Below, one piece after another: positions 3,526 through 18,121 of a stretch of 39,617 nt of DNA. The position numbers were made by a program, and so were the translations under genes. Source of the stretch: Nitrospirota bacterium (lineage in GTDB: Bacteria > Nitrospinota_A > UBA7883 > JACRGQ01); the NCBI GenBank assembly GCA_024275955.1, contig JAJRYD010000029.1, positions 68,500 to 108,116 on the forward strand, read 5' to 3'. The notes beneath the pieces are model-generated. The model searched no databases. It saw only the letters and a program-made list of their open reading frames with translations, and had not been told where the DNA came from. Position 1 is the first letter of the stretch, and each line of letters starts with the position of its first letter.

Positions 3526-4947
3526 TTGTCGAATAATCAGGAAGATAGTTTATATAACTTTAAAATAGTCCAGTGGTTTACCTTTTGCGCGGTGCTCTAT
3601 CTGCTGGTTGGAACCTTTGTAGGTTTATACATAGCGGCTGAGCTTGCGTGGCCTTTTCTTAACTTCGATATACCATACCTAACATTTGGACGGCTTCGCC
3701 CGCTTCATACTAACGCGGTAATTTTCGCGTTCGGCGGTTGCGTGTTGATGGCCTCTTCGCACTATATAGTGCAAAGGACATGCGCGGTGAGGATATGGAG
3801 CGACAAACTGGCGTGGTTCACATTCACGACATGGAATATCGTAATAGTATCTGCCGTCATTACGCTTCCGCTAGGGCTTACTCAGGGTAAGGAATACGCG
3901 GAGCTTGAATGGCCTATCGACATACTGATTGCTGTTTCATGGCTTTCGTATCTTTTTAACTTTGTGATGACATTGGCAAACAGAAAAGTCTCTCACATTT
4001 ATGTGGCCAACTGGTTTTTCCTCGCGATGATGGTAATGATTACCTATCTTCATGTGGTAAACAGTCTTGCCATACCTGTGGGGCTCTTTAAGTCTTACTC
4101 CATATTTTCAGGGGTGCATGACGCGATGATTCAATGGTGGTATGGGCATAACGCCGTCGGCTTTTTTCTTACGGCCGGTTTTCTTGGAATAATGTACTAC
4201 TTCATACCGAAACAGGCAGGAAGGCCTATTTTTTCCTACAGGCTTTCGGTAGTCCACTTTTGGGCGCTGACATTCGGGTATGTTTGGCTCGGTTCGCACC
4301 ACCTGCAATATACCGCTCTGCCAGATTGGGCAGGCTCTCTTGGCGCCGCTGTTTCTCTTGCGATGATAATCCCATCGTGGGGCGGGGCGGTAAACGGGCT
4401 ATTCACGCTTAGCGGGGCATGGCACAAGCTTAGGACCGACTATGTACTGCGGTTCCTTATTATGGCGGTCGCCTTCTACGCGATGTCTACCTTTGAAGGG
4501 CCTTTGATGAGCATTAGAACTGTCAACGCTCTTTCTCACTACACCGATTGGACTATAGGCCATGTTCATTCCGGCGCTCTTGGCTGGGTAGCGATGGTTG
4601 GCATAGGAGCGATTTATCACCTAATACCAGTACTCTGGAATACAAAAATGTATTCAGAAAACCTCATCAATGTCCATTTCTGGATGGCTACGATAGGAAC
4701 AGTTATATACATCTGCGCCATGTGGGTATCGGGAATTATGCAGGGCCTTATGTGGAGAGCGTATGACGAGCAAGGCTCGCTTCTTTACACCTTTGCCGAA
4801 TCGGTAGAGGCTATGCACCCCTATTATGCTTTGCGGGTGCTTGGAGGGTTGGTCTTTGTCGGCGGTGTCGCCTTGATGTTCTTCAACATGATTATGACGA
4901 TTAAAAACTCCGGCCAGACGGCCGAAGCTACGGAAGGGGGGCGTTAA
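3526..4947 (+). CDS. ccoN: cbb3-type cytochrome c oxidase subunit I
   Basis: A 473-residue, roughly 12-helix heme-copper oxidase subunit that reduces oxygen to water at the inner membrane. All ligands are present: H61 and H348 for low-spin heme b, H346 for heme b3, and H208, H258 and H259 for CuB. Y252 lies six residues before the HH pair (GYVWLGSHH), where C-family oxidases carry the cross-linked tyrosine. Length and spacing match characterised CcoN proteins closely. The start is TTG 3526, chosen because the strong ribosome site ends three bases before it and the residues that follow ([13 protein letters not shown]) fit the family. First gene of ccoNOQP; the next gene starts one base after its stop. 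Confidence 0.98.
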
Positions 4948-4948
4948 G

Positions 4949-5617
4949 ATGAGTACGAATACCGAAAACGAAACCTTCCAACAAAAGCTGGAGAAGAATG
5001 TTGTTGCTCTGACACTGGTGCTGGCTCTTGTTCTGTCAATAGGCGGAATTGTTATGATAGTTCCTCTTTTTTATCTTGATAATACGCTTGAGAGCTCGGA
5101 AAAGTTTCCCGAGCTTGAAGGGGTACGACCATACACAGCATTGGAACTGGCGGGGCGGGATGTCTACCTGCGCGAAGGATGCTATCTTTGCCATTCTCAG
5201 ATGATAAGGCCTTTTAGAGACGAGAAGGAGCGTTACGGCCATTATTCTTTGGCTGTCGAGTCTAAGTACGACCATCCACACCAATGGGGCTCTAAACGAA
5301 CAGGCCCCGACCTTGCGAGGGTAGGCGGAAAATATTCCGATGAGTGGCATTACGAACACCTAGAAGACCCGAGGTCTGTCGTGCCGGAATCGGTAATGCC
5401 CAGGTACCGCTGGCTGAAGAAAGCAGAGGTAAATGGAGAGCAGATTAAGAGCAATATGAACGGGATGAAGATTATCGGTGTGCCGTATTCCGACAAAGAT
5501 ATAGAGAACGCCCCTAACGATGTCAACGGCAAAACAGAGCTGGAAGCTCTTGTCGCGTATCTGCAGGTGCTTGGCACCATGATTAAGTTTGAAGAAGGGA
5601 AGGATTATCGTGACTAG
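4949..5617 (+). CDS. ccoO: cbb3-type cytochrome c oxidase subunit II (monoheme cytochrome c)
   Basis: A 222-residue protein with one N-terminal membrane anchor (about residues 20-42, [19 protein letters not shown]) and a periplasmic cytochrome c domain. The heme site is CYLCH with C78, C81 and H82. M150 in PESVMP is the likely axial methionine. [17 protein letters not shown] and [16 protein letters not shown] are hallmark CcoO segments. It passes electrons from CcoP toward the CcoN heme b. Tightly coupled: it begins one base after ccoN, and its last 8 bases overlap the GTG-started ccoQ. Confidence 0.97.
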
Positions 5618-5813
5618 TATTAAAGCATTTTTCCAAACCGACTTCCAAGCTATGACAGCGTCCGATTATGTTGGCCTTGCCATGACCATTATTGTATTTC
5701 TGCTGATGGCCGCGGCGTATCTATACGCATTTCATCCTAAAAACAGGGAAAAATTAAATTCTTACGGAGATATCCCTTTAAGAGATGATTTACACGAAAG
5801 GGGGGGGAAGTAA
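5610..5813 (+). CDS. ccoQ: cbb3 oxidase small subunit CcoQ
   Basis: A 67-residue protein with a single membrane helix ([24 protein letters not shown]) followed by a polar tail beginning [16 protein letters not shown]. This is the usual CcoQ layout. GTG 5610 was chosen over an upstream TTG (5589) because GGAAGG at 5598-5603 lies six bases before it. It overlaps the end of ccoO by 8 bases and abuts ccoP with no gap. CcoQ helps stabilise the CcoNOP complex; it is weakly conserved, so the call rests mainly on position and topology. Confidence 0.88.
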
Positions 5814-6680
5814 ATGAGCGACATAAACGAAACTCCTGATGAAGCGGGCGATACCGGCCATGAGTGGGATGGAATACGCGAGCTGAAAAACCCTATCCCA
5901 AGATGGTGGATGGTCTCCTTTTATGCTTCTATTCTCTGGTTGGTGCTGTACCTCATTCTTTACCCCAGCATTCCGCTGATAACCGGAAATTCCGAGGGAC
6001 TGCTGGGCTGGACTCAGGTAAAAGAGTATAAAGACGGCATGAAAGAGGTAGAAGCTATAAGGGCGCCTTTTGAAAAACGGATAAAAGAGCTTGATGTTGG
6101 CGGAATACTTAAAGACACCGAGCTGTCCCAGTTTGCCATAGCCTCCTCTAAAGTTCTTTTTGGCGACCACTGCGCTCCGTGTCACGGGTCTGGCGGGCAG
6201 GGTACTTCCGGCCTCTATCCAGTACTTGTGGATGACGACTGGCTCTACGGAGGCAAAATCGAAACTATAGTGGAAACAATCGCCGAAGGGCGCGAAGGTT
6301 CTATGCCGGGTCATAAAGATTCGCTCTCCCAAAAGGAGCTTGACGATGTTGTAAAGTTTGTCCAAAGCCTGAGTGCCGGAAGCTTTTACGCGCCTGGAAA
6401 GAAAGTATATCTTGGCGAAACAGCGGGTGAGGCAGAGTGTGCCGGCTGTCACGGCGAAGACGGCAAAGGCCTTACAGATTTCGGCTCTGCAAACCTTGCC
6501 GACGGCATATGGCGTTTTGATGGAACGCAGGAAGGGATAATGCACACGATTTTGTACGGGGTTAACGAAGACAACCCTGACACGAGGAAAGCAAAAATGC
6601 CTGCATTTGGCGAAAAACTTATGCCGGAGCAGATTAAAAAGCTTGCCGTAAAGGTACACCTTCTCGGTGGCGGGCAGTAG
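5814..6680 (+). CDS. ccoP: cbb3-type cytochrome c oxidase subunit III (diheme cytochrome c)
   Basis: A 288-residue diheme cytochrome c that receives electrons from soluble cytochrome c and relays them to CcoO. The N-terminus carries the family segment HEWDGIRELKNPIPRWW, followed by one membrane helix (about residues 37-55). Two heme sites follow: C120-A-P-C123-H124 and C209-A-G-C212-H213. Candidate axial methionines are in GSMPGH and KMPAFG. An 8-base ribosome site, AAGGGGGG, at 5799-5806 fits the ATG at 5814. Last gene of the structural operon; a hairpin lies 40 bases downstream. Confidence 0.97.
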   Translation: MSDINETPDEAGDTGHEWDGIRELKNPIPRWWMVSFYASILWLVLYLILYPSIPLITGNSEGLLGWTQVKEYKDGMKEVEAIRAPFEKRIKELDVGGILKDTELSQFAIASSKVLFGDHCAPCHGSGGQGTSGLYPVLVDDDWLYGGKIETIVETIAEGREGSMPGHKDSLSQKELDDVVKFVQSLSAGSFYAPGKKVYLGETAGEAECAGCHGEDGKGLTDFGSANLADGIWRFDGTQEGIMHTILYGVNEDNPDTRKAKMPAFGEKLMPEQIKKLAVKVHLLGGGQ

Positions 6681-6719
6681 AAGAGTAAATTTCGCTGAAA
6701 TTTGTTTCTAGTTATCGTT

Positions 6720-6754
6720 ATATTCCCAGCCGCTTTTAAGGCGGCTGGGGATAT
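6720..6754 (+). promoter_or_regulatory. Strong hairpin between ccoP and ccoG
   Basis: The 5' arm at 6720-6733 pairs with 6741-6754 as a 14-bp stem containing one G-U pair. The 9-bp core CCCAGCCGC/GCGGCTGGG is perfect and the loop has 7 bases. No U-run follows, so it is not a classic intrinsic terminator. It may stabilise the ccoNOQP messenger end or attenuate readthrough into ccoG. A second small stem (GCCGG/CCGGC) follows at about 6768-6784. Confidence 0.55.
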
Positions 6755-6905
6755 ACGAACTTTCTGCCGGTGTGGTGCCGGCTTTCATTAGAAAGGTGCA
6801 AAACATCTTTTTAATTGTTATTCTTAAGGTTTAGGCATCTCGATTTTCGGGAAATTATAAATCTAATTTCAAAAAGTCTGAATTTAGGCCGCTTTTAATC
6901 TGGCT

Positions 6906-8342
6906 GTGGGGAACAAAAGCTTGAGCGAAAATATAAAAGAGCAGGAGCTAGCAGAGCTTTATAGCGAATCTGAGTATTGGCATGTAAATCTTGGCGAAAC
7001 GACAATACATGCCAAGAGAATTTCGGGCAAGTTTCGTAATATAAAGTGGATTATCGCCGCCGCTGTCTACCTTCCATGTTTCCTCGTGCCTTATATTAGG
7101 TGGGAGGGCAAGCAGGCGATACTTCTGGATATTCCGGGAAGAAAATTTAATTTTTTTAGTCTGCATATATGGCCTCAGGAAGTATGGATGCTGGCTCTTT
7201 TACTTATGCTCTTTTTTTTGGTCATGCATGCCGTTACCTCTGTGGCCGGAAGAGTCTTTTGCGGTTATTTTTGTTGGCAGACTGTCTGGGTAGACGTTTT
7301 TACATGGATAGAGGAAAAGTTAGAAGGCCCGCCGGTAGCTAGAGTAAAGCTCGACGCCGCTCCGCTCTCTTTCCATAAAGTAAAAATAAAAGCGGCTAAG
7401 CATACAATATTTCTTCTGCTTGGAGTTTTTACGGGCATTTCGTTTATATCCTACTTTATAGATGTTTACGATATGTGGGGGTACTATTTCACTCTATCCG
7501 GGCCTAAGGAGATATGGATAACTATCCTCCCTTTTGCTATCGGCACATACCTTGGTGTCGCGTTCATGCGGGAGCAGATATGTTTTTGGCTTTGTCCATA
7601 CGCCAGGATACAAGGCGTTATGAGTGATGCCGATACGATAATGCCTACCTACAATTTTAAGCGCGGGGAGCCAAGAGGCAAGATAAAACGCGAAAGCGGT
7701 GATGATGAAAAAAAGCTTGGAGACTGCATAGATTGTAGCCTTTGCGTGGCGGTATGCCCCACAGGTATAGATATCCGTCATGGACAGCAAGAGGGCTGTA
7801 TTACCTGCGGGCTTTGCATAGATGCCTGCAATTCAATAATGGAGAAGGTAGACCGCCCGAAAGAACTTATTACCTACATATCGTTAAGGGAACTGCTTGG
7901 ACATAGGCACCGTCCTTTCTATAAAAGGGGCAGGGTGCTTTTATATTTCGCTATAATTTTATCGCTCTGTTCCGGAATTGTTTGGGGGCTTATAACTATA
8001 ACGCCTCTTTCACTTACCGTCATAAGGGAACGCCAGCCGCTTTTTGTCATGCTGAGCAACGGAGATATACAGAACAAGTACACGCTTAAAATTTTAAATA
8101 AATCAAATTCCGACATAGATGTCGCCGTAAAAGTTAGAGGGCTTAGAGGGGCGGTTCTTGAGTTAAGGCCGTCAAAGATTACGGTGCCTGCCGGAAAGCT
8201 TAAAAAGGTTACTGCTTTTGTCAGGGAACACCGCGAGAATATTGATGGCAAAAGCACGCTGACCTATTTTAAAGTGGAAAACATGAAAAATAAAAAAATG
8301 AGAGATAGTTACAAAACAGTTTTTATGGGGCCAAAACGATGA
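6906..8342 (+). CDS. ccoG: cbb3 oxidase assembly polyferredoxin CcoG (FixG)
   Basis: A 478-residue membrane ferredoxin that helps reduce or handle copper for cbb3 assembly. Membrane helices lie at about 48-68, 95-115, 165-185, 205-225 and 340-362. Cytoplasmic motifs are VFCGYFCWQTVW and CFWLCPYARIQG. A double 4Fe-4S ferredoxin domain follows (CIDCSLCVAVCP, then CITCGLCIDAC). The C-terminal Ig-like FixG domain spans about 370-478. GTG 6906 has no ribosome site; TTG 6921, preceded by GGGGA at 6908-6912, may be the real start and shortens the protein by 5 residues. The 225-base gap upstream contains a hairpin, so it probably has its own promoter. The stop overlaps ccoH (ATGA). Confidence 0.95.
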   Translation: MGNKSLSENIKEQELAELYSESEYWHVNLGETTIHAKRISGKFRNIKWIIAAAVYLPCFLVPYIRWEGKQAILLDIPGRKFNFFSLHIWPQEVWMLALLLMLFFLVMHAVTSVAGRVFCGYFCWQTVWVDVFTWIEEKLEGPPVARVKLDAAPLSFHKVKIKAAKHTIFLLLGVFTGISFISYFIDVYDMWGYYFTLSGPKEIWITILPFAIGTYLGVAFMREQICFWLCPYARIQGVMSDADTIMPTYNFKRGEPRGKIKRESGDDEKKLGDCIDCSLCVAVCPTGIDIRHGQQEGCITCGLCIDACNSIMEKVDRPKELITYISLRELLGHRHRPFYKRGRVLLYFAIILSLCSGIVWGLITITPLSLTVIRERQPLFVMLSNGDIQNKYTLKILNKSNSDIDVAVKVRGLRGAVLELRPSKITVPAGKLKKVTAFVREHRENIDGKSTLTYFKVENMKNKKMRDSYKTVFMGPKR

Positions 8343-8863
8343 CGGATAACGAGAAAGAAAAAAAGAGATGGCCGGAGGAAAAGTCGGACTTTAGGTCTCC
8401 TTGGGTTTGGGGGATAGGCACGCTGTTTTTACTTTTTATGTCTGTCGAAGTTTATATGGTCATAACCGCTATAGCGGCAAAACCAGACCTCGTAACGAAC
8501 GATTACTACGAGCGCGGGCAAAGCTTTACCGAAAGGTCAAAGCTAAAAAGCGAAACTATCCAAAAGCTCGGCTGGGAGATGAATTTTACCGTCGGCGAGA
8601 TAATAGTGGATGAGCCTGCACGCTTATCATTGTCTATCACTTCCAAAGGCGATGCCATAGATGTCGGTGAGGTCTTTTTGTTCGTCTACCGCCCTTCCAA
8701 CGCTAAGAAAGATTTTAAAAGGCAGATGGAGAAAGCTACAGAAGGTAACTATCAGGCAGAATTGACATTTGACGAGCCGGGGTATTGGGATGTTATCGCG
8801 GTGGCCAGACGCGATGGAAAAGAGGCAGACGTGGCAAGACGTATATATGTAAAAAGCGATTAG
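8339..8863 (+). CDS. ccoH: cbb3 oxidase assembly protein CcoH (FixH)
   Basis: A 174-residue single-span membrane protein of the FixH family, needed for stable cbb3 assembly. A basic cytoplasmic tail (EKEKKRWPEEKS) precedes the family motif SPWVWGIGTLFLLFMSVEVYM. It is followed by KPDLVTNDYYERGQSF, which matches the FixH consensus in which a YY pair follows the membrane span. The remainder is a periplasmic beta domain ending in GYWDVIAVARRDG. It starts by 4-base overlap with ccoG and precedes ccoI by 9 bases, the standard ccoGHIS order. Confidence 0.93.
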   Translation: MTDNEKEKKRWPEEKSDFRSPWVWGIGTLFLLFMSVEVYMVITAIAAKPDLVTNDYYERGQSFTERSKLKSETIQKLGWEMNFTVGEIIVDEPARLSLSITSKGDAIDVGEVFLFVYRPSNAKKDFKRQMEKATEGNYQAELTFDEPGYWDVIAVARRDGKEADVARRIYVKSD

Positions 8864-8872
8864 AATGAGCGG

Positions 8873-11323
8873 ATGAAGGAGTCAGCCTGCTACCATTGCG
8901 GTCTTCCTGTTCCTCAGTCGGGTACGGTTGCCGGCAGTATTAACGGCGTGGACAGGCTCTTTTGCTGTGAAGGATGCAAGTCTGTTTCATCTGTCATACA
9001 CGAGGCTGGGCTGGAAGGCTTTTACGGCAGAGTTCCAGATGATATAAGCCTCGCACTTCCTTTACAGGCAACCGCTCAAGCCGATATATATGATATAGAT
9101 GAGTTGCAGTCCGAATTTGCCGATACCAGCTCCGATATACGGGAGGTGACTCTCCTTGTCGAGGGGATGCACTGCGCCGCCTGTGTGTGGCTTATCGAGA
9201 AGGTTTTGGAAAAAGCAGAAGGAACCAAAGAGGGGAGGGTGAATCTTGCCGCTAAGAAGCTTCGTGTCAGGTGGGACAACAGCACAACGAAGCTTTCCGA
9301 AATAATCAAAAAGGTCGCCTCGGTTGGATACTCGTCTGTTCCATACACAGCTAGCGCGGCGATGGAGGAAGCTGAGAGTTCCAGGAGAAGTTCACTTTTT
9401 CGTATCGGCTTTTCAGGTTTTGCCGCCATGAATATGATGTGGATATCTATTGCATTGTGGACAGGTGCCGGCGATGGCGAATACCGTGATTTTTTCAGGA
9501 TTATAGGGATGTTTCTCTCGTTCTTTACGCTTGCCTACTCCGGCTACCCGTTTTTTAAAAATTCTTTTTTGGGGCTAAAAAGCTTTTATCTGACTATGGA
9601 CCTTCCGATAGTAATAGGCGCGCTTTCTGTATTTTTTTACTCTTCCTACATAACACTTCTTTCGCCGGATAGCGGTGAAGTTTATTTCGACACGGTGGTC
9701 GCGCTTATATTTATTATCCTCATAGGCCGGCATCTTGAAACATCTTCCAGAGCTATGGCGATGGATGCCGCAGGACGGCTTATGCAACTCCAGCCAAAAG
9801 TTGCCACAGTTTTAAGAGATCGGCTGGAGTCAGCAGTACATGTAAAAACCGTAAAGAAAGGCGAAACTATTTTAATAAGGCCGGGCGAGCGTATAGCGCT
9901 TGATGCCGAAGTTATCAGCGGAGAGAGTGATGTCGATGAATCTATCGTAACCGGCGAGTCGAAAATGGTTAAAAAGTCTGTCGGCAGTCTGCTGGTGGCG
10001 GGAGCTATGAATGGAAACGGGTCATTAACCGCAAAGGTTGTAAACGCTCTCCCCAACGGTACGCTTAGCAAAATGGCAAAGCTTATAGACGAAGCGCAAA
10101 CCAGCAAAGCACCTACCGAGCGTATAGCGGAGAAGATCGTGCCGTGGTTTATAGCGGCAACCATCTCTGCATCGGTAGTTACTTTTTATCTATGGTATGG
10201 AGAAGGGCTAGAGACCGCGCTTTTGACCGCTGTTTCGGTGTTGATAATAACATGTCCGTGCGCTCTCGGTCTTGCCACTCCGATGGCTGTAACGGCTGGC
10301 ATGAGGCTTGGCTCCCGTATAGGGGTGCTTGTAAAAAACGGAGCCGCGATAGAGATTTTGTCGACTGTCGACAGGTTTATATTCGATAAAACCGGAGCAT
10401 TGACCGAAGGGAAAATGAGCGTAATAGAAATAAAAACCTTTAACGGTTTTTTAGAAAAGGAGCTTCTTTTAGTTTCGGCTTCTGTCGAATCGCATTCCGA
10501 ACACAATATAGCGAAGGCTGTAGTCCGCGCCGCCAAAGCTGAAAATATCGGCATTCTTATATCCGATATAAAAAGTTTTAAGGCGGCTCAAGGGTACGGC
10601 GTTACGGCTGTCTTTGGTGAACGAAAGGTAGTTATAGGCTCTAGAGAATGGATGGATAAGCATGATGTTTTGACTGATGGAATGTATCTGACAGAATATT
10701 TTTCTAAAGGCCGAACGGTGGTTTTTTGCGCTATCGAAGGAAAACTGGCAGGGCTGTTTGTGCTGGGCGATAGACTAAGAGATGGCTCGCTGGAGGTGAT
10801 TGATTTTTTACGCAAAGAACATCTAAAAATTTCTATCTTAACCGGCGATGTAAAAGAGGTGGCGGAGCATGTCGCAAGTTCGCTTCATCTTTCTGGTTCA
10901 AACGAGGTAGAGATAAAAAGCGGAATGAAACCAGAGGAGAAGTACTTCAAAGTGGCGCAGTATCAAGAGGAGGGGAATGAAAGGGTGGTTATGATAGGTG
11001 ACGGGGTGAACGACGCTCCGGCACTGGTAAAGGCAGATGTAGGGATAGCTATTAGTTCGGGTGCGGACGTTTCGGTTCAAAGCGCGGATATGATTATCAC
11101 CGGAGGATCGCTTCAAAAGCTTGTTAAAGCGGTAAAACTTTCCAGAGCTACCACTGCAGTGATAAGACAGAATATCGCGATTTCGCTGGTATATAATATC
11201 GTTTTGGTTCCTATGGCGGTTATGGGGCTTATCACCCCGGTGTTTGCCGCCATTATTATGCCTCTTAGCTCGCTGACCGTTATAGGCAACACATTCCGAG
11301 TGAGGAAAGAAAAGCTGTTATGA
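8873..11323 (+). CDS. ccoI: Copper-translocating P-type ATPase CcoI (FixI), with altered catalytic motifs
   Basis: An 816-residue P1B ATPase that moves copper across the membrane for cbb3 maturation. It has an N-terminal cysteine domain (CYHCGLPVP and CCEGC), a heavy-metal-associated domain with GMHCAAC (C101, C104), eight membrane helices, TGES in the actuator domain, the CPC ion site at 461-463 and GDGVNDAPAL in the P domain. Two core motifs deviate. The phosphorylation motif reads DKTGALT at 505-511 instead of DKTGTLT. The nucleotide-domain SEHP motif reads SEHN (H544, N545). The phosphorylatable D505 and H544 are kept. ATG 8873 is preceded by only a weak ribosome site. The stop overlaps ccoS by 4 bases. 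Confidence 0.96.
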   Translation: MKESACYHCGLPVPQSGTVAGSINGVDRLFCCEGCKSVSSVIHEAGLEGFYGRVPDDISLALPLQATAQADIYDIDELQSEFADTSSDIREVTLLVEGMHCAACVWLIEKVLEKAEGTKEGRVNLAAKKLRVRWDNSTTKLSEIIKKVASVGYSSVPYTASAAMEEAESSRRSSLFRIGFSGFAAMNMMWISIALWTGAGDGEYRDFFRIIGMFLSFFTLAYSGYPFFKNSFLGLKSFYLTMDLPIVIGALSVFFYSSYITLLSPDSGEVYFDTVVALIFIILIGRHLETSSRAMAMDAAGRLMQLQPKVATVLRDRLESAVHVKTVKKGETILIRPGERIALDAEVISGESDVDESIVTGESKMVKKSVGSLLVAGAMNGNGSLTAKVVNALPNGTLSKMAKLIDEAQTSKAPTERIAEKIVPWFIAATISASVVTFYLWYGEGLETALLTAVSVLIITCPCALGLATPMAVTAGMRLGSRIGVLVKNGAAIEILSTVDRFIFDKTGALTEGKMSVIEIKTFNGFLEKELLLVSASVESHSEHNIAKAVVRAAKAENIGILISDIKSFKAAQGYGVTAVFGERKVVIGSREWMDKHDVLTDGMYLTEYFSKGRTVVFCAIEGKLAGLFVLGDRLRDGSLEVIDFLRKEHLKISILTGDVKEVAEHVASSLHLSGSNEVEIKSGMKPEEKYFKVAQYQEEGNERVVMIGDGVNDAPALVKADVGIAISSGADVSVQSADMIITGGSLQKLVKAVKLSRATTAVIRQNIAISLVYNIVLVPMAVMGLITPVFAAIIMPLSSLTVIGNTFRVRKEKLL

Positions 11324-12187: not shown

Positions 12188-12612
12188 AAAAAACCTAACG
12201 CTGGATAAATTAAAACTGTTCAAAACAGTCTTACATAGATAAGCGAAATAATGAAAGCCTGTTTAACGCTTGGTCGCGCGTCAATTTGAGTTTCAGTCGC
12301 TTCCCATCCTTTAACTTCGCTCGTAGAAGCTGATAGGGAGTGAAAAGCTTCGGAAACTTGCTTTTGTGAAAGAGGGGCTAAGGTGTGACGCCACTTGTTG
12401 AGACTGTTGTCAAAACCGATAAATTCGATTTTGCTATAGATTGCCAATCTCTAACGGCTCTATTTTCGAAGAAGTTAAAAGATGAACCTTTCCTTAAAAT
12501 GCTCCAAAAGCTCTCTTGGAAATGGTCTCCTTTTAAGGTGTGGCACTTCTCCCGTATTTCCACTAAACTTAAGTTCTTTTTTAATTTTTCACTGGGGGAG
12601 AGGGGCTCTTTA
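12188..12612. other. Long intergenic region upstream of ctaA
   Basis: These 425 bases hold the divergent start regions of the TauE/SafE-like gene and ctaA. They also contain one copy of a dispersed repeat (12404-12523). The plus frame of ctaA stays open back to 12385 and short minus ORFs cross the repeat, but neither looks like protein. GGGGGAGAGGGG at 12594-12605 is the ctaA ribosome site. I could not place a confident promoter. Confidence 0.5.
12404..12523 (+). repeat. Dispersed intergenic repeat, copy A
   Basis: This 120-base stretch aligns with 20222-20339 at roughly three quarters identity by eye, with small indels. Shared blocks include GATTTTGCT, GCCAATCTCTAA and AGATGA followed by CTTTCC. 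Both copies lie on the plus strand, 90-250 bases upstream of the first gene of an operon. No terminal inverted repeats or coding capacity are evident. Confidence 0.7.
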
Positions 12613-13533
12613 ATGTCTGACACCATGTCGTCCAACAACAACATGTTTGCGCCAAAATTGCTTCTTGGCTCTACCATAGCTTTCACCTATGCGCTTTTAA
12701 TAATGGGAAACCTTGTAACTACAACAGGTTCTGGCCTCGATTGCCCAGACTGGCCTCTTTGCCACGGCTCCTTTAACCCTCCCAAACAGGTTGGGATATG
12801 GATAGAGTGGACACACAGGCTAATGGGCGGGATTGCCGGCATTCTGATAGCTGGTTCTATCATATATATGTTCAAGAAGGTTTCAGGAGCTGTCAAATTC
12901 CTTTTTAAGATGATTCTAGGTCTCTTGGTTACGGTTATCATTCTCGGCGGAGTGGTGGTTTTAATAGAGGCTCCTTTGCTCGATAACTTGGTGAGGATAG
13001 CGACTGTTTCGAGCCACATAATTATAGCGACGATTATCTTCACCAGCCTGATACTCGCCTTTAGGATGACATTTAAAAGCGGGGAGAGGACGGAAAAGGT
13101 TTATACCTTGTGGCTCTTCGGGCTTGTATCGTTTCAGGTTCTTTTGGGGATTCTCGTAAGGTATTCAAACTCTTCTCTCGCCTGTCCCGACTGGCCTCTA
13201 TGCCATGGGGCTATCTTTCCTCCATCTATGATGCCGGAAGTTCTTTTGCATTACACTCACCGGCTTTTTGCCTACACCGTATTCGGGCTTACCCTCTGGA
13301 AGCTGGTCAGCACCGTAAGATCCGGTGGCGAAAATAAGCTTATACATTCCATAACCTTCGGGCTGGTGCTTATGCAGGCAAGCATAGGCGTCTTTATAGT
13401 GCTTACCAAAATGTTCCTGCCGTTTCTTATCGCTCATGGAGCGGGAGCTTTCCTCATACTTGGATGGGTTGCCTTTCAGGCGGCGCCTTATCTTGTACTA
13501 CCCGGCGAAACGGCCGAGAGTCCGGCAGGCTGA
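12613..13533 (+). CDS. ctaA: Heme A synthase (COX15/CtaA family)
   Basis: A 306-residue, eight-helix membrane enzyme that oxidises the methyl group at C8 of heme O to the formyl group of heme A. The two pseudo-symmetric halves each carry a heme-ligand histidine pair: H68 (in IEWTHR) and H135, then H216 (HYTHR) and H275. E65 corresponds to the essential glutamate of the family. Each half also contains CPDWPLCHG (C44/C50 and C191/C197), the cysteine pairs of bacterial CtaA. ATG 12613 follows a strong purine-rich ribosome site by about 8 bases; the upstream open frame has no family similarity. The last bases overlap ctaB. It opens the heme A/O and assembly operon. Confidence 0.94.
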   Translation: MSDTMSSNNNMFAPKLLLGSTIAFTYALLIMGNLVTTTGSGLDCPDWPLCHGSFNPPKQVGIWIEWTHRLMGGIAGILIAGSIIYMFKKVSGAVKFLFKMILGLLVTVIILGGVVVLIEAPLLDNLVRIATVSSHIIIATIIFTSLILAFRMTFKSGERTEKVYTLWLFGLVSFQVLLGILVRYSNSSLACPDWPLCHGAIFPPSMMPEVLLHYTHRLFAYTVFGLTLWKLVSTVRSGGENKLIHSITFGLVLMQASIGVFIVLTKMFLPFLIAHGAGAFLILGWVAFQAAPYLVLPGETAESPAG

Positions 13534-14423
13534 TGAAAAGTTCTTCACTGTTCGCAGGCTTTCCTATGACGAAAAAGTCTTTGACAGCTCTTTTTATGCT
13601 ACCAAAGCCGGGAATTGTGCTTCTTTCGCTGGTAGCAGGCTGGACAGGGGTTTATATAGGCTCTCACGGCCATCCCAGCCCTCATGTTGTTCTCTGGCTC
13701 TCTGTAGGTCTCGGTCTCGCTACTGCCGGAGCGGCGGTTATGAATAATGTTGTAGACAGAGATATAGATTCCGTAATGAAGAGGACGAAAGGGAGAACAT
13801 TACCGTCCGGCGCTATATCGCCAAGGAGTGCTTACTGGATAGGGGTTTTGATGATACTAAGCTCCCTTTTGGTCACTATGTACTACTTTGGAAGCTTGGT
13901 AACGATACTTACATGGATTGCGATATTCATATATGTTGTTCTCTATTCAATTTACCTTAAACGCACCACCCCGATGGCGACTCATATAGGAGGCTTATCC
14001 GGCGCGTTGCCGCCTCTTATAGGCTACGCCGCCGCGAATGGAAGCCTAGATGTTAATGCCTACATACTTTTTGCCATCATCGTTGTGTGGCAACAGCCTC
14101 ACTTCTGGGCGCTCGCCTTAAAGTATAAAGACGACTACGCGAGTGCCGGCGTTCCGATAATGCCGGTCTCGATGGGGGTAGAGGCAACGAAGGTCAGGCT
14201 GTTGTGGTGGACTGTCGGCCTTTTACCTATAGCAGTTTTGCCGTACTTTTCCGGAATGGCTGGCATATATTATCTGGTGGTCGCTGTACTGCTCTCTATT
14301 GTCTATATAGGGTTTACTGTTCGTTTTGTAATGTCCAACAAAGATAAGGAGATGTTCCTTTTTTTCTTTTCGATTTTTTACCTTGGAGTTCTGTTCGGCA
14401 CCATGGTTCTTGATATGACATAA
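13533..14423 (+). CDS. ctaB: Protoheme IX farnesyltransferase (heme O synthase)
   Basis: A 296-residue UbiA-superfamily membrane enzyme that attaches a farnesyl group to heme b to make heme O, the substrate of CtaA. The first aspartate-rich motif is NVVDRDIDSVMKRT with GRTLPSG after it. The second region contains KYKDDYASAGVPIMPV. QQPHFWALAL is a heme O synthase signature. ATG 13533 overlaps the ctaA stop; an internal ATG at 13566 would give a protein 11 residues shorter and also fits. Gene order ctaA-ctaB is the usual one for making heme A. Confidence 0.96.
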   Translation: MKSSSLFAGFPMTKKSLTALFMLPKPGIVLLSLVAGWTGVYIGSHGHPSPHVVLWLSVGLGLATAGAAVMNNVVDRDIDSVMKRTKGRTLPSGAISPRSAYWIGVLMILSSLLVTMYYFGSLVTILTWIAIFIYVVLYSIYLKRTTPMATHIGGLSGALPPLIGYAAANGSLDVNAYILFAIIVVWQQPHFWALALKYKDDYASAGVPIMPVSMGVEATKVRLLWWTVGLLPIAVLPYFSGMAGIYYLVVAVLLSIVYIGFTVRFVMSNKDKEMFLFFFSIFYLGVLFGTMVLDMT

Positions 14424-14444: not shown

Positions 14445-15764
14445 ATGCGAAACAGTTATACAGGCAGGTGGTTTATTCTTTCGGTGCTTTCTCTTGGAAT
14501 GGGGGGTGCGTTCGCGTTTCTTATAGGAATGAGCAGAATGCCGGGTGCCGCCGATTTTTTTCCGAGCAACTATTTTCAACGCGCGCTTGTTGGGCATGTC
14601 GATTTGGCGATACTGTGCTGGCTGATGATTTCGGCCATTGTCCTTTGGAGCTATCATCTAAAAGAAGCAGGCGCAAAGACAAGCTTTTGGGTAGGCTCTG
14701 CCGGTGTTTTTATGATTGCCGCGGCGGCACTGCCTGGAAGCGGAGAAGCTGTTCTTAATAACTATGTCCCTACAATAGTAAGCCCGCTCTTTTTTACGGG
14801 GCTTATGCTCTTCTTTGTCGCTTTTAGCGTAAATGTTTTCGGCTATCTAAAATATGTAAGGAGTGGTTTTCGTTCGGAAAGCATGGTCTACGACGCTATC
14901 TCCGTCTCACTTGTAATATCTCTGGTTATGATATTTTCTGTCGTAATATCGTTTGCCCTTCTTTGGTCAGATAGTTCCAATACGCAAGTTTACTTCGAAA
15001 AGATTTTCTGGACACCGGGTCATATTCAGCAGGTTCTCAACGGTGCTATGCTCATAATCGTTTGGTACGCGCTTCTTGGCAAAACTATAGAAAACGAGCC
15101 AGAATTTCCAAACTTTCTCAAAGTGGCAAACAAGATGCTTATACTCTCGACGATAACGATGCTGGGTATGCTGTTTTTGATGGATCCGCTTGATAGGGCC
15201 TCTAGGATAGGTTCTGAAGTTATATACGCGATAGGGCTTGGCATACCGCTTTTTATGCATATATGGAATATCCTAAAGCAATATAAGTTTGATAAATCGA
15301 AACCGGCATCGGTATCACTCTTAATCTCGATAATCATCTATCTCTTCGGTATTTTTATAGCCTACGGCGGCTTTGGAAACGACACAAGGGTACCGGCCCA
15401 CTACCACGGAGCGGTAACGGCATTGACGCTTGCTCTTATGGGCTTTGGGTATCATATGGTTAAAGAGTCGGGGGTGAAAATTTACTTCGAAAAGATAGCC
15501 CGCTCACAGCCGTATGTTTACGGGGTCGGCATGGTTATGTTTATAGCAGGTCTTTTCGTCTCCGGCCTTCATGGAGCGCCAAGAACAACACACGGAGTGG
15601 CATGGACAGACGACCCGATTGTGCTAGGCGCGATGACACTGATGGGAGTAGGCACGTTGCTGGCCGTCGCCGGCGGTATAATGTTCGTATTTTATATCGG
15701 TATAACGGTCATAAAGGAAAAAAGAGCAATGAGTGACAACGGCAATATGCCAAAGCCGGAGTAA
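14445..15764 (+). CDS. Orphan heme-copper oxidase subunit I-fold protein lacking two CuB histidines
   Basis: A 439-residue protein with about 12 membrane helices that aligns by eye with CcoN-type subunit I. H51 (ALVGHVD) and H321 match low-spin heme ligands. H319 (AHYHGA) matches the high-spin heme ligand. H193 (WTPGHIQQ) matches the first CuB histidine. Where the other two CuB histidines belong (SHH in CcoN at 257-259) this protein reads LFL before MDPLDRAS, so the pair is absent. There is also no tyrosine four residues after H193. It therefore probably binds two hemes but no normal CuB. A good ribosome site (AGGA) precedes ATG 14445, 21 bases after ctaB. It has no subunit II partner here. 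Roles such as heme chaperone, sensor, quinol or NO chemistry are all speculative. Confidence 0.8.
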   Translation: MRNSYTGRWFILSVLSLGMGGAFAFLIGMSRMPGAADFFPSNYFQRALVGHVDLAILCWLMISAIVLWSYHLKEAGAKTSFWVGSAGVFMIAAAALPGSGEAVLNNYVPTIVSPLFFTGLMLFFVAFSVNVFGYLKYVRSGFRSESMVYDAISVSLVISLVMIFSVVISFALLWSDSSNTQVYFEKIFWTPGHIQQVLNGAMLIIVWYALLGKTIENEPEFPNFLKVANKMLILSTITMLGMLFLMDPLDRASRIGSEVIYAIGLGIPLFMHIWNILKQYKFDKSKPASVSLLISIIIYLFGIFIAYGGFGNDTRVPAHYHGAVTALTLALMGFGYHMVKESGVKIYFEKIARSQPYVYGVGMVMFIAGLFVSGLHGAPRTTHGVAWTDDPIVLGAMTLMGVGTLLAVAGGIMFVFYIGITVIKEKRAMSDNGNMPKPE

Positions 15765-15970: not shown

Positions 15971-16915
15971 ATGGATGCTGTTCGTATAAGCGGGTTGCGC
16001 CACAGCTATCCAAAGACAGATACCGAGGTTCTAAAAGGGATATCTCTTTCCGTGCCGGAACGGTTGATTTTTGGGTTTCTTGGCCCCAACGGCTCGGGCA
16101 AGACAACACTCTTTAAAATTCTTTCCACGCTTTTTGTTTCTACCTCTGGTTCGGTCGAAGTTTTTGGTATTAATACCAGCAGGAATCCTTACGAAGCCCG
16201 CAAGCTTATAGGAACGGTTTTCCAGTTTCCAAGTATAGATTTAAAGCTGACGGTAGATGAAAACCTCCGGCACCACGGTCATCTTTACGGCATGAGAGGC
16301 GAAGAGCTTAACTCACGAATAGATGAGCAGGTAGAGCGGTTCGGGCTTTTGGAAAAGCGGGCTGAATTTACCGGAAAACTTTCCGGTGGACAGCGTAGAC
16401 GGGTAGAGCTTGCTAAGGGGATGATACATTCTCCAAAGCTTCTTATTATGGACGAGCCGTCCACAGGGCTGGACCCAAGCGCGCGCCTCTCTTTGTGGGA
16501 GACACTTTGCGAATTGAAAGAGAGTAGCGGCGTAACAATTCTGCTTACCACGCACCTTATAACCGAGGCAGAAAAGTGCGACCGTCTTGCCATTCTTAAC
16601 AAAGGGGAGATAATCGCCAGCGGTTCGCCCAAAAAGCTTAAAGGCGAGATAGGCGGGGATATCTTGACAGTCTCCAGTCATTCGCCGTTAGAGTTCATAA
16701 GCAGGTATAAAGAAAAGTACGGTGGTAATCCGGTTCAGCTTAACGGGAAGGTAAGAGTGGAGCATGAAAACGGATACCGCCTAGTACCGGAACTTGTAGA
16801 TGCTTTTCCTGACCTTGTCGATAGCATCACCTATGGCAAACCTACCTTAGAAGATATTTTTGCGCTCCGTACCGGACGTTCTTTCTGGAGCGGCGGGGCA
16901 GATAAAAATGAGTAA
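15971..16915 (+). CDS. ABC transporter ATP-binding protein (ABC-2 type exporter)
   Basis: A 314-residue ATPase of the DrrA/NodI/CcmA-like group. Walker A is GPNGSGKTT (about 38-46), followed by a Q-loop in VFQFP, signature LSGGQRRR, Walker B LLIMDEPSTGLD and the switch histidine in LTTHL. The extra C-terminal domain (about 225-314) contains PTLEDIFALRTGR, usual in ABC-2 ATPases. It energises the permease encoded next, with which it overlaps by 8 bases. Linkage to ctaA, ctaB and a DUF420 gene suggests a role in cytochrome oxidase biogenesis, but the substrate is unknown. Confidence 0.9.
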   Translation: MDAVRISGLRHSYPKTDTEVLKGISLSVPERLIFGFLGPNGSGKTTLFKILSTLFVSTSGSVEVFGINTSRNPYEARKLIGTVFQFPSIDLKLTVDENLRHHGHLYGMRGEELNSRIDEQVERFGLLEKRAEFTGKLSGGQRRRVELAKGMIHSPKLLIMDEPSTGLDPSARLSLWETLCELKESSGVTILLTTHLITEAEKCDRLAILNKGEIIASGSPKKLKGEIGGDILTVSSHSPLEFISRYKEKYGGNPVQLNGKVRVEHENGYRLVPELVDAFPDLVDSITYGKPTLEDIFALRTGRSFWSGGADKNE

Positions 16916-17684
16916 CCAGCTTCTCGGCATAGCCACGCTTTGGCAAAGGGAGATGGTTCGCTTCTACAGAGACAAAAGTAGGGTTATAGGCGGGCTTGTT
17001 CCGCCGGTTATTTTTTGGGTTTTTATCGGTTCCGGTTTTAGCGGTTCGTTTCGTGTAGGCACAGGGGATGGTATGAACTATATGGTCTACTTTTTCCCAG
17101 GTATCATTACGCTTATATTTTTGTTTACGTCGGTTTTTTCCAACATGTCTATAATAGAGGACAAAGTGCAAGGGTTTATGCAGTCGGTACTTGTAGCTCC
17201 GGTTCCAAGGTATGTGATAGTTGTCGGCAAGGTGTTTGGCAGTACTACGCTTGCGTTCATACAGGCGTTGCCGTTTTTGGTTATAGGATATTTTGCCGGA
17301 ATAAACTTTCGGGCGGAAATGCTTTTCGAGATGGTCATAATCCTTTTTAGCATCGCGTTTGTTCTCTCATCTATCGGTTTTATCGTTGCGTGGGTTCTCG
17401 ATAGTTCGCAAGGGTTTCACGCTATTATGAATATGTTTCTGATGCCTATGTGGCTTTTGTCCGGCGCACTTTTCCCATTGGAAAACCTGCCGGTATGGCT
17501 TGAATGGATGGTAAAGGTAAACCCGCTTACATACGCTGTTGCCGCGCTACAGCGTGTTATTTTCGACCCGGGCCTCATCACCACTCTGCCGACGATGCGG
17601 CAATGTTATATTGTAATATTCGTTTACTGTGCCGTTTGCTTTCTTGGCGCGCTTTTTGTGGCAAATAGAGGAAACAATAGATGA
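16908..17684 (+). CDS. ABC-2 type transporter permease
   Basis: A 258-residue membrane protein with six predicted helices in ABC-2 permease arrangement. The N-terminal amphipathic WQREMVRFYRDKSRV precedes the first helix. GFMQSVLVAPVPRYVIVVGKVFG is the conserved cytoplasmic coupling region. The stretch MNMFLMPMWLLSGALFPLENLP with NPLTYAVAALQRV is a family signature. ATG 16908 was preferred to the longer open frame from 16860, which would overlap the ATPase gene by 56 bases. It overlaps the next gene by ATGA. It forms an exporter with the preceding ATPase; the substrate is not deducible. Confidence 0.9.
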   Translation: MSNQLLGIATLWQREMVRFYRDKSRVIGGLVPPVIFWVFIGSGFSGSFRVGTGDGMNYMVYFFPGIITLIFLFTSVFSNMSIIEDKVQGFMQSVLVAPVPRYVIVVGKVFGSTTLAFIQALPFLVIGYFAGINFRAEMLFEMVIILFSIAFVLSSIGFIVAWVLDSSQGFHAIMNMFLMPMWLLSGALFPLENLPVWLEWMVKVNPLTYAVAALQRVIFDPGLITTLPTMRQCYIVIFVYCAVCFLGALFVANRGNNR

Positions 17685-18121
17685 TAGATATAAGTATCCT
17701 GCCCCATTTTCAGGCTTTGATGAACAGCACGACAGTCTGCCTTATGCTTATAGCGTTTTATTTTATAAAACAAGATAAGGAAAAGAACAAAAAAAAACAT
17801 ATGTGGTTTATGCTTTCAGCGCTCTTTACCTCTATGCTTTTTCTTATCTCCTATACCATTCACCATAAATACGCAGGGCTCACAAAGTTCAGCGAAGATG
17901 GTCTTGTTAGGTATTTTTATCTTACATTGCTTCTTGTCCATACTGTTGTCTCTTTTGTGCTTTTGCCGATGGTACTGCTTATACTTTACAGAGCGTTCAA
18001 AGGCGACTTTAAGCGTCATGGAAAACTTGCGAAGTGGACATTGCCGACATGGCTTTTCGTCTCGGCTTCCGGCGTTATAATATACACCATGCTGTATCAT
18101 CTATATCCGCCGTCCGGCTAA
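17681..18121 (+). CDS. DUF420 membrane protein (CtaM-like oxidase biogenesis factor)
   Basis: A 146-residue, four-helix membrane protein. Conserved features of DUF420 are the histidine pair in YTIHHKYAG, the helix histidine in LLLVHTVVSF, and KRHGKLAKWTLPTWLFVSASGVIIYTMLY near the end (about 110-138). In Staphylococcus the relative CtaM is needed for an aa3-type oxidase. Four conserved histidines suggest heme or copper binding. It follows the ABC permease by 4-base overlap and ends 4 bases before miaB, so the cytochrome module and miaB may share a transcript. Confidence 0.85.
   Translation: MIDISILPHFQALMNSTTVCLMLIAFYFIKQDKEKNKKKHMWFMLSALFTSMLFLISYTIHHKYAGLTKFSEDGLVRYFYLTLLLVHTVVSFVLLPMVLLILYRAFKGDFKRHGKLAKWTLPTWLFVSASGVIIYTMLYHLYPPSG

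Follow-up and report, generated by a model that had tools for sequence, protein, structure and literature searches.

A COX1-fold protein family without a CuB site, linked to heme O synthase genes, as a candidate factor in oxidase maturation

The gene at positions 14445..15764 (+) of the window, the 39,617-nucleotide stretch of Nitrospirota bacterium DNA analysed here, encodes a COX1-fold protein (P0001) whose family, as read from the alignment of its members, lacks the CuB site throughout. We give an even chance to the proposal that this CuB-less protein acts as a pseudo-subunit I without catalytic activity, holding heme O or heme A while copper-containing oxidases and eNORs mature. The proposal fits a heme pocket that is kept, a CuB site that is lost, co-inheritance with the heme O synthase, and no preference for an oxidase over an NO reductase as client; the gene shows the linkage to heme O/A synthesis and oxidase genes expected of an assembly factor.

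The gene is a single, full-length open frame with an ATG start, encoding 439 residues with 12 transmembrane helices. Its product matches the Pfam family PF00115 (COX1) with 45.8 bits against a cut-off of 34.8, and has no NCBIfam match. An AlphaFold2 model, built from 66 family members and without cofactors, comprises twelve long helices at a pLDDT of 94.3. Among solved structures, it comes nearest to subunit I of the B-type ba3 and of the aa3 oxidases, at TM-scores of about 0.71-0.79, and no solved structure of any close relative was found. The modelled fold places the protein in the heme-copper superfamily. The first-pass annotation had allowed that it might belong to an already characterised subfamily; Pfam, NCBIfam, structure and literature searches found no named or characterised family below PF00115 that fits. 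The literature search, which did not extend to the recent main work on new NOR families, returned no COX1-like assembly protein. A 2024 PNAS study reportedly covers eNOR/sNOR/gNOR/nNOR. The family appears to be undescribed, and may have received brief mention in the recent NOR-family work.

To define the family, we aligned 81 members, comprising the best 80 of at least 580 relative loci together with the window protein. Alignments with the CcoN of the window, A-type COX1 and eNOR bear out the earlier reading that H51, H193, H319 and H321 are retained. H51 in helix II (14595..14597, +; His in 80 of the 80 members covering it) pairs with H321 as ligands of the low-spin heme, with H319 as the high-spin ligand; the H319-Y320-H321 motif in helix X (15399..15407, +) is present in 81/81. 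The remaining CuB ligand, H193, corresponds to CuB His 1 and sits in the motif W189..GH193xxQ196 (15009..15032, +; 81/81), whose Gln is common to eNOR. At the place of the CuB HH pair lies M242-L243-F244 (15168..15176, +). Depending on gap placement, the pair aligns to L243-F244 or M242-L243, never to His, in agreement with the replacement of HH by LF noted before. R380-T381 (15582..15587, +) takes the place of the two Arg residues that lie close to the heme propionates, with Arg at 380 in every member; at 15585-15587 the window protein alone has Thr, where the other 80 of 81 have Lys beside the invariant R380. Invariant across all 81 are W189, G192, H193, Q196, P317, H319, Y320, H321 and R380, giving a family pattern of H51, W189, GH193xxQ196, P-x-HYH321 and R380 without HH. 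Position H193+4 is V197 in the window protein, mostly Phe across the family, and not Tyr. The first-pass annotation was right about the missing Tyr, but its comparison with CcoN at this position is not diagnostic, because the cross-linked Tyr of C-type oxidases is not at H+4. The alignment with CcoN itself holds, but eNOR, with Gln at H+4, is the closer comparison.

With HH in 0/81 members, the family lacks the three-histidine CuB of A-, B- or C-type oxygen reductases, and likewise the H+4 Tyr of the A and B types. The combination of H+4 Gln and complete CuB that marks eNOR is also absent, as is the FeB site of cNOR/qNOR, made of three His plus Glu, since two of the three His are gone. The possibility, raised earlier, that other residues supply CuB was pursued in the family alignment, where no other invariant His, Cys or Met was found near the site; alternative ligands were rejected, as none of the conserved residues looks capable of restoring CuB. 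Because CuB cannot form, neither O2 nor NO should be turned over by the protein, in line with the prior expectation that standard O2 reduction is excluded. Heme binding is predicted from the retained ligand residues.

The relatives, collected by running a profile against a single genome for each species, are widespread, so that the pattern is more than a peculiarity of one genome. The best 80 come from Nitrospinota, Nitrospirota, Deltaproteobacteria (old sense), Gamma-, Alpha- and Betaproteobacteria, Aquificota, Rokubacteria and Methylomirabilota. In the tree, the CuB-less proteins group in a single clade of 64 rows (SH-aLRT 100) beside eNOR and apart from A-type COX1. eNOR would be the sister clade within the set used, in a quick tree that has some long branches and in which eNOR is the only NOR family among the references.

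Of 69 nonredundant loci, 42 have CtaB no more than 3 kb away, and in 34 of these the distance is at most 300 bp; SCO1 is a neighbour in 27 (up to 5 kb), CtaA in 11 (up to 3 kb) and DUF420 in 8. Subunit I of eNOR occurs within 8 kb in 16 of the 69 and A-type COX1 in 9; all these counts are lower bounds because many contigs are short. The gene order varies with lineage: COX2-eNOR-CuB-less gene-CtaB-SCO in Deltaproteobacteria and Nitrospirota, CtaA-CtaB-CuB-less gene-DUF420 in Aquificota, and COX3-SCO-COX2-COX1-CtaA-CtaB-CuB-less gene-ABC-ABC-DUF420-MiaB in the window's relatives (L038, L149). By the tree, the partner enzyme has switched between aa3 and eNOR no fewer than three times, and the CuB-less protein is therefore not tied to one enzyme. 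As a sole partner, eNOR was rejected on account of the aa3-linked loci (L038, L068, L074, L078, L089, L096, L103, L108 and L149), and CtaA because it is missing from many deltaproteobacterial genomes. Adjacency to COX2-eNOR subunit I or COX3-COX2-COX1 in many loci, strong co-occurrence with eNOR and retained heme ligands could also mean an extra structural or electron-carrying subunit, a heme-bearing pseudo-subunit I paired with the catalytic one of an oxidase or eNOR complex. We regard such a subunit as improbable, given the repeated switches between very different partners, a gene that often stands apart from oxidase genes yet adjoins ctaB, and its persistence in the window's genome with neither partner.

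The constant companion appears to be CtaB, because about 13 genomes carry the CuB-less gene and CtaB, mostly with eNOR, and no CtaA at all. These same genomes could be taken to favour an enzyme that modifies heme O and, for instance, stands in for a missing CtaA. We consider that highly improbable: the pocket is COX1-like and unlike that of CtaA, and a normal CtaA adjoins the gene in Nitrospinota, Aquificota and Gammaproteobacteria, so a replacement is not needed there. Within one phylum-level group of 148 genomes, CtaB scored over the cut-off in 6/6 carriers of the CuB-less gene against 14/148 overall (Fisher p 2e-7, and 2e-6 once the centre genome is removed), and eNOR was found in 5/6 carriers against 6/148 overall (p 6e-8, and 1e-6 once it is removed), p-values that overstate significance because the 148 genomes are related. 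The single eNOR genome of this group without the CuB-less gene also lacks CtaB. Surf1 is absent from 48 of the 61 genomes examined and present together with the CuB-less gene in 13, so that a role as Surf1 substitute is not supported as a rule.

The gene neighbourhood in the window, with ctaA, ctaB and DUF420, was correctly described at first sight. The heme A synthase gene ctaA (12385..13533, +; start probably near 12613) retains EWTHR and further His motifs, and the heme O synthase gene ctaB (13464..14423, +), which ends 21 nt before the CuB-less gene, retains the motif DRDIDSVMKRT. Downstream lie an ABC transporter ATPase (15971..16915, +) and an ABC-2 permease (16860..17684, +), both syntenic in the family, followed by a DUF420/CtaM-like protein (17681..18121, +; for the role of CtaM, see PMC9145763). 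The CtaA-CtaB-CuB-less gene-ABC-ABC-DUF420-MiaB block is intact in this genome. Further upstream on the same strand, positions 3526-11323 hold ccoNOP, ccoG and a CcoI/FixI-like P-type ATPase for the cbb3 oxidase; no other complete heme-copper oxidase turned up in the window's genome.

In that genome, which is 98.4% complete, no aa3 oxidase, eNOR or COX2 was found, and CcoN is the only full COX1; a third PF00115 match is short and fragment-like (L003). All other carriers checked in the class have an aa3 oxidase or eNOR. The stretch upstream of ctaA (12224..12600, no strand assigned), where the relatives L149, L038 and L155 carry COX3-COX2-COX1, contains no COX1-3 remnant by tblastn. The empty syntenic place, the absence of any COX2 or eNOR and the Thr at 381 would fit a relic confined to this genome, with the oxidase gone and the assembly genes in decay, a view compatible with any family-wide reading. 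We think it rather unlikely that the window copy is such a relic. It is a full-length frame with all ligands retained, its terminal branch in the tree is not long, and it is not fast-evolving; CtaA, CtaB and DUF420 of the window are about as conserved as the adjoining MiaB; and a missing contig is conceivable, since the COX operon stands at a separate locus in the relatives G005 and G009. The persistence of the gene here may be due to a loss that is still recent, to a contig absent from the assembly, to a different client such as the bd-like oxidase of this genome, or to a function of the protein's own.

Contig C40 of the same genome (G000) encodes a 683-residue bd-like oxidase with a THH motif amid c-type cytochromes (L166:4635-6686, -), which resembles the bd-like oxidases of Nitrospina/Nitrospira (PMC8026999) and is possibly an alternative O2 reductase. 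A relative from the same taxonomic family as the window's genome, G007 (92% complete), has no CuB-less protein, CtaA, CcoN, aa3 or eNOR. The window's genome, and several deltaproteobacterial loci where they lie divergently beside the CuB-less gene, also encode short COX1-derived proteins of 136-311 residues that span a portion of PF00115 (L003:1486-2421; L085:5726-6133, -); these are possibly a second kind of reduced COX1.

Retention without an aa3 or eNOR client, together with H193 and Q196, which are invariant despite the loss of CuB and for which a bare carrier has no obvious need, leaves some room for a copper-free redox enzyme or gas sensor, a di-heme membrane protein that would bind NO or O2 at its open heme, where H193 and Q196 lie distally. 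Such a role seems unlikely to us, as the protein has no signalling domain and no dedicated redox partner whose gene is conserved, many polar positions that eNOR conserves are lost, including HH and the H+4 Gln, and the linkage is to heme O synthesis rather than to regulators. The first-pass annotation had suggested a heme carrier or sensor for oxidase assembly, or an enzyme of a new type; the survey of neighbourhoods favours an assembly or heme-handling role over the sensor, because the gene keeps company with the heme O synthase and changes partner between aa3 oxidases and eNORs.

Under the maturation role that we favour, heme O from CtaB, joined where CtaA is present by heme A, would enter the COX1-like pocket, be ligated by H51/H321 and H319 with its propionates gripped by the R380/K381 pair, and be passed to apo-subunit I of the oxidase or eNOR encoded nearby. 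In this scheme the handover and the direction of transfer are putative. There are also findings that speak against this role. The window's genome keeps the gene and intact ctaA and ctaB with no client, whereas a pure chaperone should decay in that situation, unless the loss is recent or the assembled genome misses a contig. In addition, Surf1 accompanies the gene in 13 genomes, and 11 of the 38 loci whose flanks are complete carry no ctaA or ctaB in the surrounding 3 kb. More tentatively, and with the balance leaning the other way, we suggest that a whole branch of the superfamily may have become a dedicated copper-free carrier of heme O/A from CtaB/CtaA to subunit I of oxidases and eNORs. According to a 2022 review (PMC9145763), the mechanism that delivers heme A from its synthase into subunit I is not known. 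The CuB-less family is a concrete candidate for such a delivery factor, in that it copies the heme pocket of subunit I, has no CuB and is co-inherited with CtaB. It also calls for care in annotation, as these proteins pass the PF00115 threshold and may be miscounted as terminal oxidases or NO reductases.

One of the closest known systems is eNOR, the Gln-type NO reductase. Beyond the sister-clade position, the CuB-less protein and eNOR have W, GHxxQ, HxH and the first residue of the Arg pair in common, and both conserve 23 alignment columns, including the heme ligands, W189, Q196 and R380. Unlike the CuB-less protein, eNOR has three CuB His, a CuA-type subunit II and, as its diagnostic residue, Gln at H+4 (PMC8756737); the CuB-less protein lacks HH and this Gln, is about 60-70 residues shorter and has lost many polar positions. 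With A-type and B-type COX1 (aa3, ba3) it shares the 12-helix fold and the heme ligands, the top PDB matches being Thermus ba3 and Aquifex 7deg, but it has neither CuB nor Tyr and is only 14-17% identical. CcoN, subunit I of cbb3, shares the PF00115 fold and is more distant in sequence, with a lower TM-score (about 0.67) and a full CuB. Surf1, Cox11/CtaG and CtaM (DUF420) resemble the CuB-less protein in the proposed role in oxidase maturation and in gene neighbourhood, although they belong to unrelated protein families, and Surf1 is mostly missing from the genomes with the CuB-less gene that were examined.
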